Shown piece after piece: positions 9,237-19,223 of a stretch of 41,303 nucleotides of DNA; position 1 is the stretch's first letter, and each line of letters starts with the position of its first letter. The position numbers and the translations under genes were made by a program. Under the pieces are notes generated by a model that ran no database searches, was not told where the DNA came from, and saw only the letters and a list, made by a program, of their open reading frames with translations. The stretch is from Acidimicrobiaceae bacterium (GTDB taxonomy: Bacteria; Actinomycetota; Acidimicrobiia; Acidimicrobiales; Bog-793): the NCBI GenBank assembly GCA_027335685.1, contig DAHWHN010000006.1:1-41303 (forward strand), written 5' to 3'.

Positions 9237-10521
9237 CCACCGGCGCCGCGATCCGGCGACCGCGGCGCGACGCGACCGGCGCCGCATGCCGCTCGAGCCA
9301 GACCGACGTGGCCGCGAGCGCGGCGAGAAGGGCACCAGATGCCGCCAGCGCGTCGAGCGCGACGCTCGTCGTCGACCCGTGGGCGACGACGACGGCGGCG
9401 ACAAGGGCTCCTGCACCTGCCCACGGGAGGAGCACCGCTGCGCTGCGGTGCGCGAGGTGATGGCTCACGAGGTAGGACGAGATCCCGAGCAAGGCGTAGG
9501 AGATCGACAGGACGCGCAGCGCCACCGTCGCCCCCGCGTACCGGTGGCCGAACACGACGAGCACGACGAGCGGGGCGGCGGCGCAGAGCACGCCGGCCGT
9601 GCCGAGCGCGAGAGCTGCGACCTCGGCGAGGCCGACCCGGAAGGCCCGGCCGTCCCTCGAGCTCGCTCCTCGCGCGACGTCGGGGAAGATCGACGTCGCG
9701 GCGGCCGCCGACACGAAGTACGCGATGCTCCCACCCGCCGACGCCGCGGCGTAGTACCCGGACGCCTGCGGGCTGAGCCAGTGCCGGGCGGCGACGGTGT
9801 CGATGCTCATCAACGAGAGCAGGCCCGTGAAGCCGAGGACGGAGAGCCCCACCTCGCGTACCTGCAACGGAGCGCTGCGCGCACCGGGCCTGCTCGCGGC
9901 GAGCACGAGGGCGAGCAGCACGAGAGCGGTCGCCACCTCCCCGAGCGCCGCGCCGGCGAGCGGCCCGACGATACCCGGTCGCAGCGCGACCCACACCCAG
10001 CCCACCGCGAGCCGGAGCGCGGCGCCCCCTGCCGCCGCGAGCCCGACCCACGCGTACCGCCTCTCGCCGACGAGGGCGCCTCGTGGAACCCCTTCGAGCA
10101 GGATCGCACCGAGGTAGGCGCCGCAGAGCGCGACGGCCCAGTCGCCCGACAGGTGCAGGAGCGGGTCAAGCACCGGCACGAGGACGAGGGCGGCGCAGAC
10201 GAGCGCCGCGGCCCCGCCTGCGGCGAGCAGGATGGGGCGACCGAGACGGAGCGCTCCTGCGGGCGCGACGGCGACCTGCCGGGTGACGGCCGACTGCACC
10301 GCGGAGAGCGGGACAGCGAGCAGGGTCGCGAGCGCGAGCACGGAGCCGACCGCTCCGTAGCTCGAGCGCCCGAGAAGGCGCGAGAAGACGGCGTTCGCGG
10401 CAAAGCTCAGGACGCTGACGCTGAGCAGCCCGGCCGTGAGCACGTGGCGACCCCGTCCCTCCACCGAGAGGTCGGCCGAGCCGTCCGCGCCGTCGCGCGC
10501 CGGCCGCCGGCGCGTCGTCAC
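9208..10521 (-). CDS. Polysaccharide flippase (Wzx/MOP superfamily)
   Basis: ~12 hydrophobic segments; VLSFAANAVFSRLLGRSSYGAVGSVLALATLLAVPLSAVQSAVTRQVA typical of MOP oligosaccharide flippases. Confidence 0.85.
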   Translation of the reverse strand: MTTRRRPARDGADGSADLSVEGRGRHVLTAGLLSVSVLSFAANAVFSRLLGRSSYGAVGSVLALATLLAVPLSAVQSAVTRQVAVAPAGALRLGRPILLAAGGAAALVCAALVLVPVLDPLLHLSGDWAVALCGAYLGAILLEGVPRGALVGERRYAWVGLAAAGGAALRLAVGWVWVALRPGIVGPLAGAALGEVATALVLLALVLAASRPGARSAPLQVREVGLSVLGFTGLLSLMSIDTVAARHWLSPQASGYYAAASAGGSIAYFVSAAAATSIFPDVARGASSRDGRAFRVGLAEVAALALGTAGVLCAAAPLVVLVVFGHRYAGATVALRVLSISYALLGISSYLVSHHLAHRSAAVLLPWAGAGALVAAVVVAHGSTTSVALDALAASGALLAALAATSVWLERHAAPVASRRGRRIAAPVVSPDGARSP

Positions 10522-15276: not shown

Positions 15277-15286
15277 CGCTCAGCGC
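15270..15286. terminator. Compact inverted repeat between convergent genes, candidate bidirectional terminator
   Basis: GCGCTGA-cgc-TCAGCGC, 7-bp perfect arms containing both stop codons. Confidence 0.4.
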
Positions 15287-17028
15287 GGACCGAACCTGCA
15301 GAACGTCACCGGTTCGAACCCGGCACCGATGTGGGCCGCCTCGACGTCGCAGGCACGGGCGACGAGCCCGGGTGCGCCGAGCCGGGCGAGGTAGCGCGAC
15401 GTCCCCTTCGGCGTCGAGAGCCCGTGCCGGGGCGGCACGTCGACGAACACGACGTCGATGTCGCCTCCGTCACGGCGCACGCGTGCAAGCGCCCGGTGGA
15501 CGAGCACGCGGTTGGCCGGCGTGAGGAGGTTCCCGATGCCGCCGATCGCGACGAGGCGCTGCGGGAGCTGGGGGAACAAAAAGCCCATCGGCTGGCCACC
15601 GACCTCGACGACTGCGTCGGTCTTGTCGTTGTCGAGCACGTGGGGGAGCTGGAGGCTGAAGTACCGGCTCCCGAACGGCACCCGCAGCCAGTAGTTCCCC
15701 GGCCACGCGGTGGCGGCGCAGAGCGCGCAGACGACAAGGACCGTCGGTACCAGCCCGCCCGCAGCTCGGGCGCGCCACGGTGACGTCGCGGGGGCGAGCG
15801 CGGCGAGGCGGCGGAGGACGGCGACGATCACGACCGGCGAGAGCACCTCGAGCGGCAGGACGTAGCGGTAGATGCTGAAGACCTTCATCCAGACGGCCAA
15901 CGAGACGGCGAAGGTCACGATGAGGTAGCGGTCCGCGTCCGCGTCCCGGGTCGTGCCCGTCTCGGCTGCGACCACCCGGGCGTCGTCGAGCGGCGACGCG
16001 GCGACGGCTCGCCGGCCGACGGCGCGCCAGAGCAGGCGGGCGGCGCCGGCGAGGACGAGGAAGCAGGCGAGGATGTACGCGAGGGGCAACGAGAGCTCGC
16101 GGAAGCGGATCTCGCCGACCAAGAGAGGGTGCGCGACCCACCGGAGCGGGAAGCTCAGGCCCGCGAGCACCGATCGCGGGCCGTACCCTCCCCCGGCGAG
16201 CCGGGGCTTCGGGACGTACGGCGAGTGGAAGATGCCGAACGACGCCTGCGTGAAGGCGATGGGGTCCCCGTAGTGCACCCAGAGGAACCAGCTCCAGTAG
16301 CCCGAGGTCGCAGCGACGCCGGCCACGCCACCGGCTGCGCCCGCTCCGAGGCGTTTTGCCCGATCCCGCAACGAGCCCCCGACGGCCACGAGCCCGACGA
16401 CGATCCCGACGGCCACCGGAAGCTCCGAGAGCTTGAGGCCTGCGCCCGCCCCGGCGAGGGCCCCGGCGAGGGCCCAGCGCCACAGCTCGCCGGGCGCCCC
16501 CCGCCTGTCGACCGCCTGGAGGGCGAGCAGGACCGCGCCGACGAGGGGAACCGCGACGATCGTGTCGCCCATCGAGTTGCCGATCTGCGCGGCGAACCCG
16601 CCTGCCACGGCCGCGGCGACGCCGGTCGCGAAGCCGACGACCCATGAGCGCGTGAGGCGGTGGGCCACGAGGACGACGAGCAGCGGACCGCAGCCTTGCA
16701 CCGCGCCGACGACGGCCGCTTCAAGCCGGGGGGGGCTGTGGCCGATCAAGAGATAGATCGGCACGTCGAGCAGCGGGTTGATGAGGGACTGCAGCTGCGC
16801 CGCGTAGACGTCCACGCCGAGGCGGTCGTGGAGGAACGCATAGGCGATGTAGTAGTGGTAGTTGAGCAGGTCGTAGTTCGCGTCCTGGCCGATCGCGAGC
16901 GCCGCGAGGGCGCAGCCGAGCGGGAACGCGAGGAGCAGCGCGCGCCGAAGCCCGGGCGCGTGGGCACGCGCACCTGCGCGCACGGCCCCTGGCACGCGAG
17001 CTCCCTGGTGCGTCCCGGTGCGCTTCAC
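15280..17028 (-). CDS. Polytopic membrane protein, GT-C glycosyltransferase-like (paralogue A)
   Basis: Multiple TMs; GCALAALAIGQDANYDLLNYHYYIAYAFLHDRLGVDVYAAQLQSLINPLLDVPIYLLI; GTG start. Confidence 0.8.
   Translation of the reverse strand: MKRTGTHQGARVPGAVRAGARAHAPGLRRALLLAFPLGCALAALAIGQDANYDLLNYHYYIAYAFLHDRLGVDVYAAQLQSLINPLLDVPIYLLIGHSPPRLEAAVVGAVQGCGPLLVVLVAHRLTRSWVVGFATGVAAAVAGGFAAQIGNSMGDTIVAVPLVGAVLLALQAVDRRGAPGELWRWALAGALAGAGAGLKLSELPVAVGIVVGLVAVGGSLRDRAKRLGAGAAGGVAGVAATSGYWSWFLWVHYGDPIAFTQASFGIFHSPYVPKPRLAGGGYGPRSVLAGLSFPLRWVAHPLLVGEIRFRELSLPLAYILACFLVLAGAARLLWRAVGRRAVAASPLDDARVVAAETGTTRDADADRYLIVTFAVSLAVWMKVFSIYRYVLPLEVLSPVVIVAVLRRLAALAPATSPWRARAAGGLVPTVLVVCALCAATAWPGNYWLRVPFGSRYFSLQLPHVLDNDKTDAVVEVGGQPMGFLFPQLPQRLVAIGGIGNLLTPANRVLVHRALARVRRDGGDIDVVFVDVPPRHGLSTPKGTSRYLARLGAPGLVARACDVEAAHIGAGFEPVTFCRFGPR
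16855..16919 (-). repeat. Left arm of 65-bp inverted repeat (2 mismatches) shared with 17383-17447
   Basis: Direct comparison: revcomp tcggctgcgccctcgcggcgctcgcgatcggccaggacgcgaactacgacctgctcaactaccac. Confidence 0.95.
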
Positions 17029-17270
17029 GTGTACGTCGAACGGCTGGCTACGGCGCGTCCCTTTCGAGTCGCGTGCCGGACGAGCAAGTCACCGGCGTGC
17101 CCGAGTGCCTGGACGAGCACTCGGTCAGATCGCATTTGTCAATTGTGTTACGAACGTAGCACGGACCCGATCGCGACGTCGCAGCAGCAGAGCGGCGGCG
17201 GCGGCGGCGGAGCAACTACCGTGCCAGGACCAGCGCGTGCGTCACGACCGGCGCACGGACAGGAGGCTCG
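17029..17270. promoter_or_regulatory. Divergent promoter region between GT-C-like paralogues
   Basis: Intergenic, with AT-rich patch gcatttgtcaattgtgttacgaacgtagc (17132-17160) and a (GCG)n run. Confidence 0.5.
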
Positions 17271-19223
17271 ATGGCGCACAGGGCGCCGGCAACCACGGCA
17301 GGGACGCGTCGGCCCGACCGCGCGACGACTCCACCCGCCAGGCTCCGCTGGCCCGAGCGCGCCGTCCTCGCGCTCCTCCCCGTCGGCTGCGCGCTCGCGG
17401 CGCTCGCGATCGGCCAGGACGCGAACTTCGACCTGCTCAACTACCACGCCTTCGACCCGTACGCGTTCCTCCACAACAGCCTCGCCGTCGACGTCATCCC
17501 CGCGTCGCTGCAGAGCTACCTGAACCCGCTCATCGACGTCCCGTTCTACGCGCTGATGACCCACGTCCCCCCGCGTTTCGAAGCCGCGATCGTCGGCGCC
17601 GTCCAGGGGCTCAACCTCGTGCTCGTCGCGTGCATCGCCCGCCGGGCGACCGGGTCACGGCTGCTCGCGCTCGCGGCGACGATCGCGGCCGGGGTCGCGG
17701 GAGGGTTCGCGTCCGAGCTCGGCAACTCGATGGGCGACACGATCGTGAGCATCCCCGTCCTCGCCGGCGTCTGGTGCGCGCTCGTCGCGATCGAGCGCGG
17801 ATCGGCCACGCCAGGTGCACGACCAGGACAGGCGCGCCGCCACCGGACGCGCCGAGACGCGGTGGGCCACGACGACGCGAGGCGCGCCGAGACATGGTGG
17901 TGGGCTGCCGCAGGTGCCCTGGCGGGGCTCGGGGTCGGCCTCAAGCTGTCCGAGCTCGAAGTCTGCGTCGGCCTGGTCGTGGCAGCCGGAGCCGTCGCAG
18001 GATCGTGGCGCGATCGCCTCCGGCGCCTTCTCGTCACCGGGCTCGCGGACCTTGCGGGCCTGCTCGCCACCGCCGGGTACTGGACGGTCCACCTCTGGCT
18101 CACCTACCACGACCCGCTCGTGTTCGACGCCTCGTCGAACGCGCTCTTCCCGACCCCGTACCTTCCCGCGGCAGCGGCCCAGGGGCGGGGCTTCCTGCCG
18201 GCGAACCTCTTCCAGGCTCTCGTCTATCCCCTCTACTGGTTCGTGCACCCGCTCGCGGTCGCGGAGATCCCGCTGCGCGAGCTCTCGATCCCGCTCGCCT
18301 ACGTCCTCACCGCAGCCCTGGTCGTGGTCGTCGTCGCCCGAGCGATCCTGCGCACGGCACGGGCTGGGGCTCGGTGGGCGCGCCGGAGCGCGCCTGGCGC
18401 AGCCGGCGCAGCCCCCGACCCGCTGCCCGCGTCGCGGGCGGACGACCATGTCGCGGCGCAGGCCGACCGCTTCTTCCTCGTGCTCTTCGGCGTCTCGCTC
18501 GCCATCTGGACCAAGCAGCTCGGCGTCTACCGGTACCTCATGCCCGTCGAGACCCTCGCGCCGCTCGTGATCTGGGCAGCCGCGCGGCGGCTCTCGCTCC
18601 TCGCCGCCGAGCGCCGGGGAGGCGTGCCGGGCCGGGCAAGCCGGCGCCGGCGCGCCCTCGCGGCGAGCTTCGTCGTCGCGTGCACCGCCTGCGCCGCGAC
18701 GGCCTACCCGGCGAGCTACTGGCTGCGCGTGCCTTTCGGGACCCGCTTTTTCACCGTGCCGACTCCACCCCTGCTCCAAGGGCGGCGACCCGACGCGGTG
18801 CTCCAGGTGAGCGAGCAACCGCTCGCCTTCGTCTACACCGTCCTTCCGAGCCGGATCATCGCCGTCGGTTACCTCGGCAACATCCTCGACCCGACCTACA
18901 TCCGGCTCGCCGACGACGCCGTGCGCCGCGCCGTCGGCGCCGGGGGTTCGGTGCTCGTCGACTTCGTCGGCTCCTACGGTCCCGGCCTCCGGGTCCCACC
19001 CGGCACGAGCGCCTACCTCGCCGAGCTCGGCCTCGGGCGCCTCGCCCCGGACGCCTGCGACATCGACCGTGCCCACGTCGGGGCTGCGCCCTTCTACCTC
19101 ACGTTCTGCCGGCTCGGGCCCCCTCCTCCGGCACGCCCGTCGCCGCGCGCCGCGCGCGGACATGGCGCGCCACCACGTGCTCGAGCCGCTCCACCATCTG
19201 CCGGCCGACCGTCGCCGAGCTGA
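17271..19223 (+). CDS. Polytopic membrane protein, GT-C glycosyltransferase-like (paralogue B)
   Basis: GCALAALAIGQDANFDLLNYHAFDPYAFLHNSLAVDVIPASLQSYLNPLIDVPFYALM; end-to-end similarity to paralogue A. Confidence 0.82.
   Translation: MAHRAPATTAGTRRPDRATTPPARLRWPERAVLALLPVGCALAALAIGQDANFDLLNYHAFDPYAFLHNSLAVDVIPASLQSYLNPLIDVPFYALMTHVPPRFEAAIVGAVQGLNLVLVACIARRATGSRLLALAATIAAGVAGGFASELGNSMGDTIVSIPVLAGVWCALVAIERGSATPGARPGQARRHRTRRDAVGHDDARRAETWWWAAAGALAGLGVGLKLSELEVCVGLVVAAGAVAGSWRDRLRRLLVTGLADLAGLLATAGYWTVHLWLTYHDPLVFDASSNALFPTPYLPAAAAQGRGFLPANLFQALVYPLYWFVHPLAVAEIPLRELSIPLAYVLTAALVVVVVARAILRTARAGARWARRSAPGAAGAAPDPLPASRADDHVAAQADRFFLVLFGVSLAIWTKQLGVYRYLMPVETLAPLVIWAAARRLSLLAAERRGGVPGRASRRRRALAASFVVACTACAATAYPASYWLRVPFGTRFFTVPTPPLLQGRRPDAVLQVSEQPLAFVYTVLPSRIIAVGYLGNILDPTYIRLADDAVRRAVGAGGSVLVDFVGSYGPGLRVPPGTSAYLAELGLGRLAPDACDIDRAHVGAAPFYLTFCRLGPPPPARPSPRAARGHGAPPRARAAPPSAGRPSPS
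17383..17447 (+). repeat. Right arm of 65-bp inverted repeat (2 mismatches) shared with 16855-16919
   Basis: tcggctgcgcgctcgcggcgctcgcgatcggccaggacgcgaacttcgacctgctcaactaccac. Confidence 0.95.

Follow-up and report, generated by a model that had tools for sequence, protein, structure and literature searches.

Introduction

Opposed paralogues with inverted repeats inside their coding sequences are known from type I restriction-modification systems, in which hsdS loci invert between repeats of 15–298 bp (PMC4948785); these inverting loci often include a recombinase gene (PMC7394358). In Saccharomyces, homogenised inverted gene pairs with 4-kb near-identical repeats undergo flip/flop, and both orientations are observed (PMC9731477). 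Concerted evolution and gene conversion of duplicated prokaryotic genes are also already known (PMC6053082).

Here, we analyse a short inverted repeat shared by two head-to-head genes, g1 and g2, of an Acidimicrobiaceae bacterium. The stretch of DNA that we analysed (the window; 41,303 nucleotides) is contig 26 of a 2.39-Mb genome that is 82% complete. We consider it probable (about 0.8) that the repeat arose as a side effect of an ancient head-to-head duplication and corresponds to the most constrained motif stretch of two GT-C-like genes.

Results

A near-perfect inverted repeat lies inside two head-to-head paralogues

The gene g1 (15280–17028, minus strand, GTG start) encodes a GT-C-like polytopic membrane protein of 582 amino acids, as judged from its open reading frame, coding-type GC at codon positions, orthologues with 79–80% amino acid identity in the genus and GT-C-like fold matches. 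Its paralogue g2 (17271–19223, plus strand, 650 amino acids) was assigned from its open reading frame, its alignment and its orthologues in other genomes, and the two proteins align with 50% amino acid identity. Their neighbours are a run of group 1 and group 2 glycosyltransferase and methyltransferase genes, which is flanked by SUF genes and, on the opposite side, by a MacB-like exporter. The long stretch of such glycosyltransferase and methyltransferase genes, at 10518–31139, is likely a surface glycan locus. A search of a plasmid collection gave no match.

Arm 1 of the repeat (16855–16919, minus strand) comprises the g1 codons for GCALAALAIGQDANYDLLNYH, at the end of the first transmembrane helix (TM1) and in the first loop, including the conserved Asp 49; arm 2 (17383–17447, plus strand) comprises the homologous g2 codons, for GCALAALAIGQDANFDLLNYH. 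The arms are inverted and identical at 63 of 65 positions, with mismatches at arm positions 11 and 46, one of them silent (GCC/GCG) and the other a Y/F exchange. The initial annotation had described the repeat in these terms, and its coordinates, its inversion, its two differences and its placement at homologous codons of head-to-head paralogues were all reproduced. The enclosed 463 bp (16920–17382) hold both N-termini, both start codons (GTG at 17028 on the minus strand and ATG at 17271 on the plus strand) and the shared intergenic region (17029–17270), in which a consensus scan, uninformative in itself, found no sigma-70 promoters or terminators. A wider and weaker inverted similarity surrounds the arms (16694–16925 and 17377–17608; 232 nt, 78%), and the block pattern has only two sites in the whole window, which are the arms themselves.

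As had been proposed, identity falls off outside the arms. The block is an outlier against the remainder of the two coding sequences, both in nucleotide identity (97% vs. 60%) and in identical codons at conserved residues (19/20 vs. 146/255). The identity of the arms exceeds chance recoding. When g1 and g2 were recoded synonymously 1000 times, the longest run with at most two mismatches averaged 31 bp and never exceeded 54 bp, compared with 65 bp in the real pair; in addition, 19 identical block codons are seen where codon usage predicts 12.7–12.9 (P = 3e-4 to 6e-4).

The block encodes a putative catalytic loop

The block spans the end of g1 TM1 and the adjoining loop, where the family motif is GxDxNxDxxNYH. 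Residues G47, D49, N51, D53, N56, Y57 and H58 are invariant across 9 homologues, including relatives from Caballeronia and Rhodopila. The structure of g1 predicted by AlphaFold2 (mean pLDDT 66.7, pTM 0.73) places the first helix at residues 18–46, and the invariant D49 and D53 directly follow it. Foldseek matched the model to ALG12, Pmt4, ArnT, STT3/OST and AftB with a probability of ~1.00, to be read with E ≥ 1.5e-3, TM ~0.4 and the mean pLDDT of 66.7 of the query. The modelled polytopic membrane fold thus resembles that of known GT-C enzymes. GT-C enzymes bear an acidic catalytic residue in the loop after the first helix, so strong constraint at the block is expected, and we infer that GxDxNxDxxNYH is probably the catalytic loop of a GT-C-like enzyme. 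The likeness to ArnT, PMT, STT3, ALG12 and AftB lies in the fold and in an acidic motif in the loop that follows TM1; unlike these enzymes, g1 and g2 matched no family in Pfam and NCBIfam searches, and g1 had no match in a PDB sequence search.

The block is equally conserved between genomes and genera

We searched 34 other genomes of the family for g1 and g2. Besides the window's genome (G000), the head-to-head pair was found in two genomes of the same genus (G001 and G002) and in two further genera (G012 and G015), and split pieces were found in G026. In the five assemblies with the head-to-head pair, which span three genera, each strand carries exactly one copy of the block pattern, and block identity across the three genera is 88–98% in all comparisons, whether orthologous or paralogous. 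Over 60 bp, the window's g1 and g2 differ from each other at 2/60 positions; the window's g1 differs from G015 g1, in another genus, at 1/60, and the window's g2 differs at 1/60 positions from each of G015 g1 and G015 g2. Codon mismatch, computed for three genomes at codons whose residue is identical in every row, is 0.11 with the own partner, 0.15 with a foreign partner and 0.17 with an orthologue in the block, compared with 0.39, 0.46 and 0.43, respectively, outside it. Because foreign partners and orthologues mismatch about as little as own partners, the block is held across the whole family and not mainly through exchange within one genome. We accordingly rejected intragenomic exchange as its main cause, since the genes of foreign genomes match as well. 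The initial annotation had allowed that the block might simply be the most conserved motif, and this agrees with its equal conservation between species and genera.

With few exceptions, the block uses the preferred codons of this GC-rich genome (top codons at 19/21 and 20/21 positions vs. 15.7 expected), and its near identity is probably due to this codon choice together with a protein sequence that hardly varies there. Most of the silent-site identity, we infer, stems from codon preference. Against this explanation, silent-site identity is above the codon-usage prediction, which calls for an additional constraint or for conversion now and then. Silent identity is therefore partly unexplained by codon usage, and block identity as a whole is above the codon-usage null, yet equally high between genera. 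The codons TTG, shared by both genes in G001 and by both in G002, and CTT, shared by both in G001, would fit micro-conversion and likewise count against this explanation.

In every comparison within the family, silent sites diverge about one third as much in the arms as elsewhere, a reduction that exceeds the codon-usage effect. This is what a DNA or RNA element (a binding site or a structure) superposed on the coding block would produce by fixing silent sites. Such an element is very improbable: the block is no more prone to RNA structure than its synonymous recodings are (z −1.3 to 0.1 in five genes), on which ground RNA structure in the block was rejected, and codons that are the preferred ones require no extra element.

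The cassette has one orientation in the genus

The initial annotation had read the repeat as an invertible switch, in which recombination between the arms flips 16920–17382 and exchanges the promoters and N-termini of g1 and g2. The geometry of the arms suits such a switch, hsdS systems being known to invert on repeats of 15–298 bp (PMC4948785), and the claim that both frames would be preserved was correct, in that an in silico inversion between the arms leaves the bodies of g1 and g2 open. However, the window and G002 align over ~4.5 kb, cassette included, as one collinear piece, the same is true of G002 and G001 (92%), and no flipped cassette was found among the assemblies of these three genomes of the genus. 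Within the genus, the sequences upstream of the block match from g1 to g1 and from g2 to g2 (z 14–76), whereas z for g1-g2 pairing is ~0. A fixed inversion within the window's genus was rejected, the N-termini and promoter sides having stayed with the same gene bodies.

A scan of window genes revealed no member of a recombinase family; recombinase genes are present on other contigs of the same genome, with no link to the g1/g2 locus shown. The N-termini of g1 and g2 are short leaders without a known specificity role, and coding constraint probably explains the arms. With one orientation in the genus and no recombinase among the scanned window genes, the switch is unsupported, and we regard a reversible one as extremely improbable. 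Hardly more probable is a variant in which the arms recombine only rarely, inverting the promoter and N-terminal cassette of a divergent GT-C pair and so exchanging expression between two surface-glycan enzymes, while gene conversion keeps the arms alike.

Contig-end overlaps suggesting assembly branching were not found in G001, G015 or G026. The G001 MAG contains two differing versions of the same g1 stretch, on contigs C215 (end of L025) and C221 (L026); this MAG either mixes strains or has two g1 copies.

Gene conversion between the paralogues in a sister genus

In the sister genus g14 (G015 and G026), segment trees conflict between parts of g1. Codons 235–582 give clean g1 and g2 clades (100/100). 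In contrast, codons 59–102 place G026 g1 inside the g2 clade (96/98), and codons 103–190 place both G015 g1 and G026 g1 there (93/93). The DNA upstream of G026 g1 is g1-type (z 23.9 vs. 0.4), the g2-like tract sets in close to the block, and g1 sequence returns in the body. In G015, the inverted arms are at least 163 bp long, include exact matches of 89 bp and 44 bp and extend to the contig end. These tracts rest on MAG contigs, for which chimeric assembly is possible, and the two independent assemblies agree on codons 103–190. Because g1 of the sister genus contains g2 sequence (the G026 tract and the G015 arms), inter-paralogue gene conversion appears, from these trees, to occur in this gene pair, and the case for it is confined to the sister genus.

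Three features of these contigs are also of interest. The G026 g1 (contig C5, L030, 124–2070) combines g1-type upstream DNA, g2-like codons ~37–190 and a g1-type body, a mosaic that is either a conversion tract or an assembly chimera, the contig having a low coverage of 1.56 according to its title. The near-identical inverted g1/g2 arms of G015 (contig C5, L028, 1–163 and 1278–1440) lie at a contig edge and are a better exchange candidate than the window's block. Finally, g1 of both genomes (L028 and L030) has a second patch of g2-like states at codons ~290–322, which may be ancestral states or another conversion.

Recurrent short conversion of the inverted paralogues could also homogenise the block in the window's own genus, without inversion. 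The sister-genus trees, the G026 tract that begins near the block under g1-type upstream DNA and the exact inverted matches of G015 all favour this process, as does the slightly greater closeness of own pairs than of foreign pairs over the 60-bp block (3.2 vs. 5.1 differences; 2/120 permutations), a signal that is weaker at silent sites alone (8/120 permutations). Outside the block in the window's genus, however, 271 sites are orthologous, 28 concerted and 25 cross, so that concerted sites are at the level of homoplasy; the site counts inside the block are too small for the same test. The blocks of the window's two genes are, over few informative sites, no closer to one another than to another genus. 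We therefore consider homogenisation by recurrent conversion unlikely, if less so than a switch. The ongoing exchange or gene conversion that the initial annotation had suggested thus holds for the gene pair in the sister genus, by the segment trees, but does not follow for the window's genome, where the block is conserved equally between species and genera.

Discussion

The repeat is real and its cause ordinary: it is a conserved motif in head-to-head duplicates, and a switch is unsupported. In the mechanism that we propose, an old duplication would have produced a head-to-head pair of GT-C-like genes of the glycosyltransferase type, and the block at the end of TM1 and in the first loop (GxDxNxDxxNYH) would have stayed near identical under near-invariance of the protein, with preferred codons of a GC-rich genome adding to nucleotide identity. 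Gene conversion between the paralogues would be a secondary process, and in the sister genus the block may lie near one tract end. Head-to-head duplicates that share a conserved coding motif can thus mimic the repeat of an invertible switch, and comparison of orthologues separates the two. The recurrent transfer from g2 to g1 in the sister genus would be a modest example, from uncultured bacteria of the Acidimicrobiia type, of conversion between paralogues in inverted orientation.

As in prokaryotic concerted evolution (PMC6053082), partial transfer between paralogues appears to have taken place in G015 and G026. In contrast to those systems, transfer between g1 and g2 is patchy, falls mainly in the first ~200 codons, stops short of whole-gene homogenisation and is seen in the sister genus only. 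As with the Saccharomyces flip/flop pairs (PMC9731477), inverted paralogues that are kept similar could in principle re-create inversions, whereas the g1/g2 repeat is 65 bp long and has one orientation.

The inverting hsdS loci of type I restriction-modification systems (SpnD39III / Spn556II and others; PMC4948785, PMC7394358) share with g1/g2 the opposed paralogues, the inverted repeats within coding sequences and the possibility of in-frame hybrids. Because no alternative orientation was observed in the genus and no linked recombinase was found among the window genes scanned, we do not assign g1/g2 to hsdS-type switches. At hsdS loci, inversion is observed, a recombinase is often present at the locus and the repeats separate variable specificity domains. 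At g1/g2, orientation is fixed in the genus, the window genes scanned hold no recombinase, and the repeat is the most conserved motif of the protein, so that a flip would exchange only a short N-terminus and a promoter.
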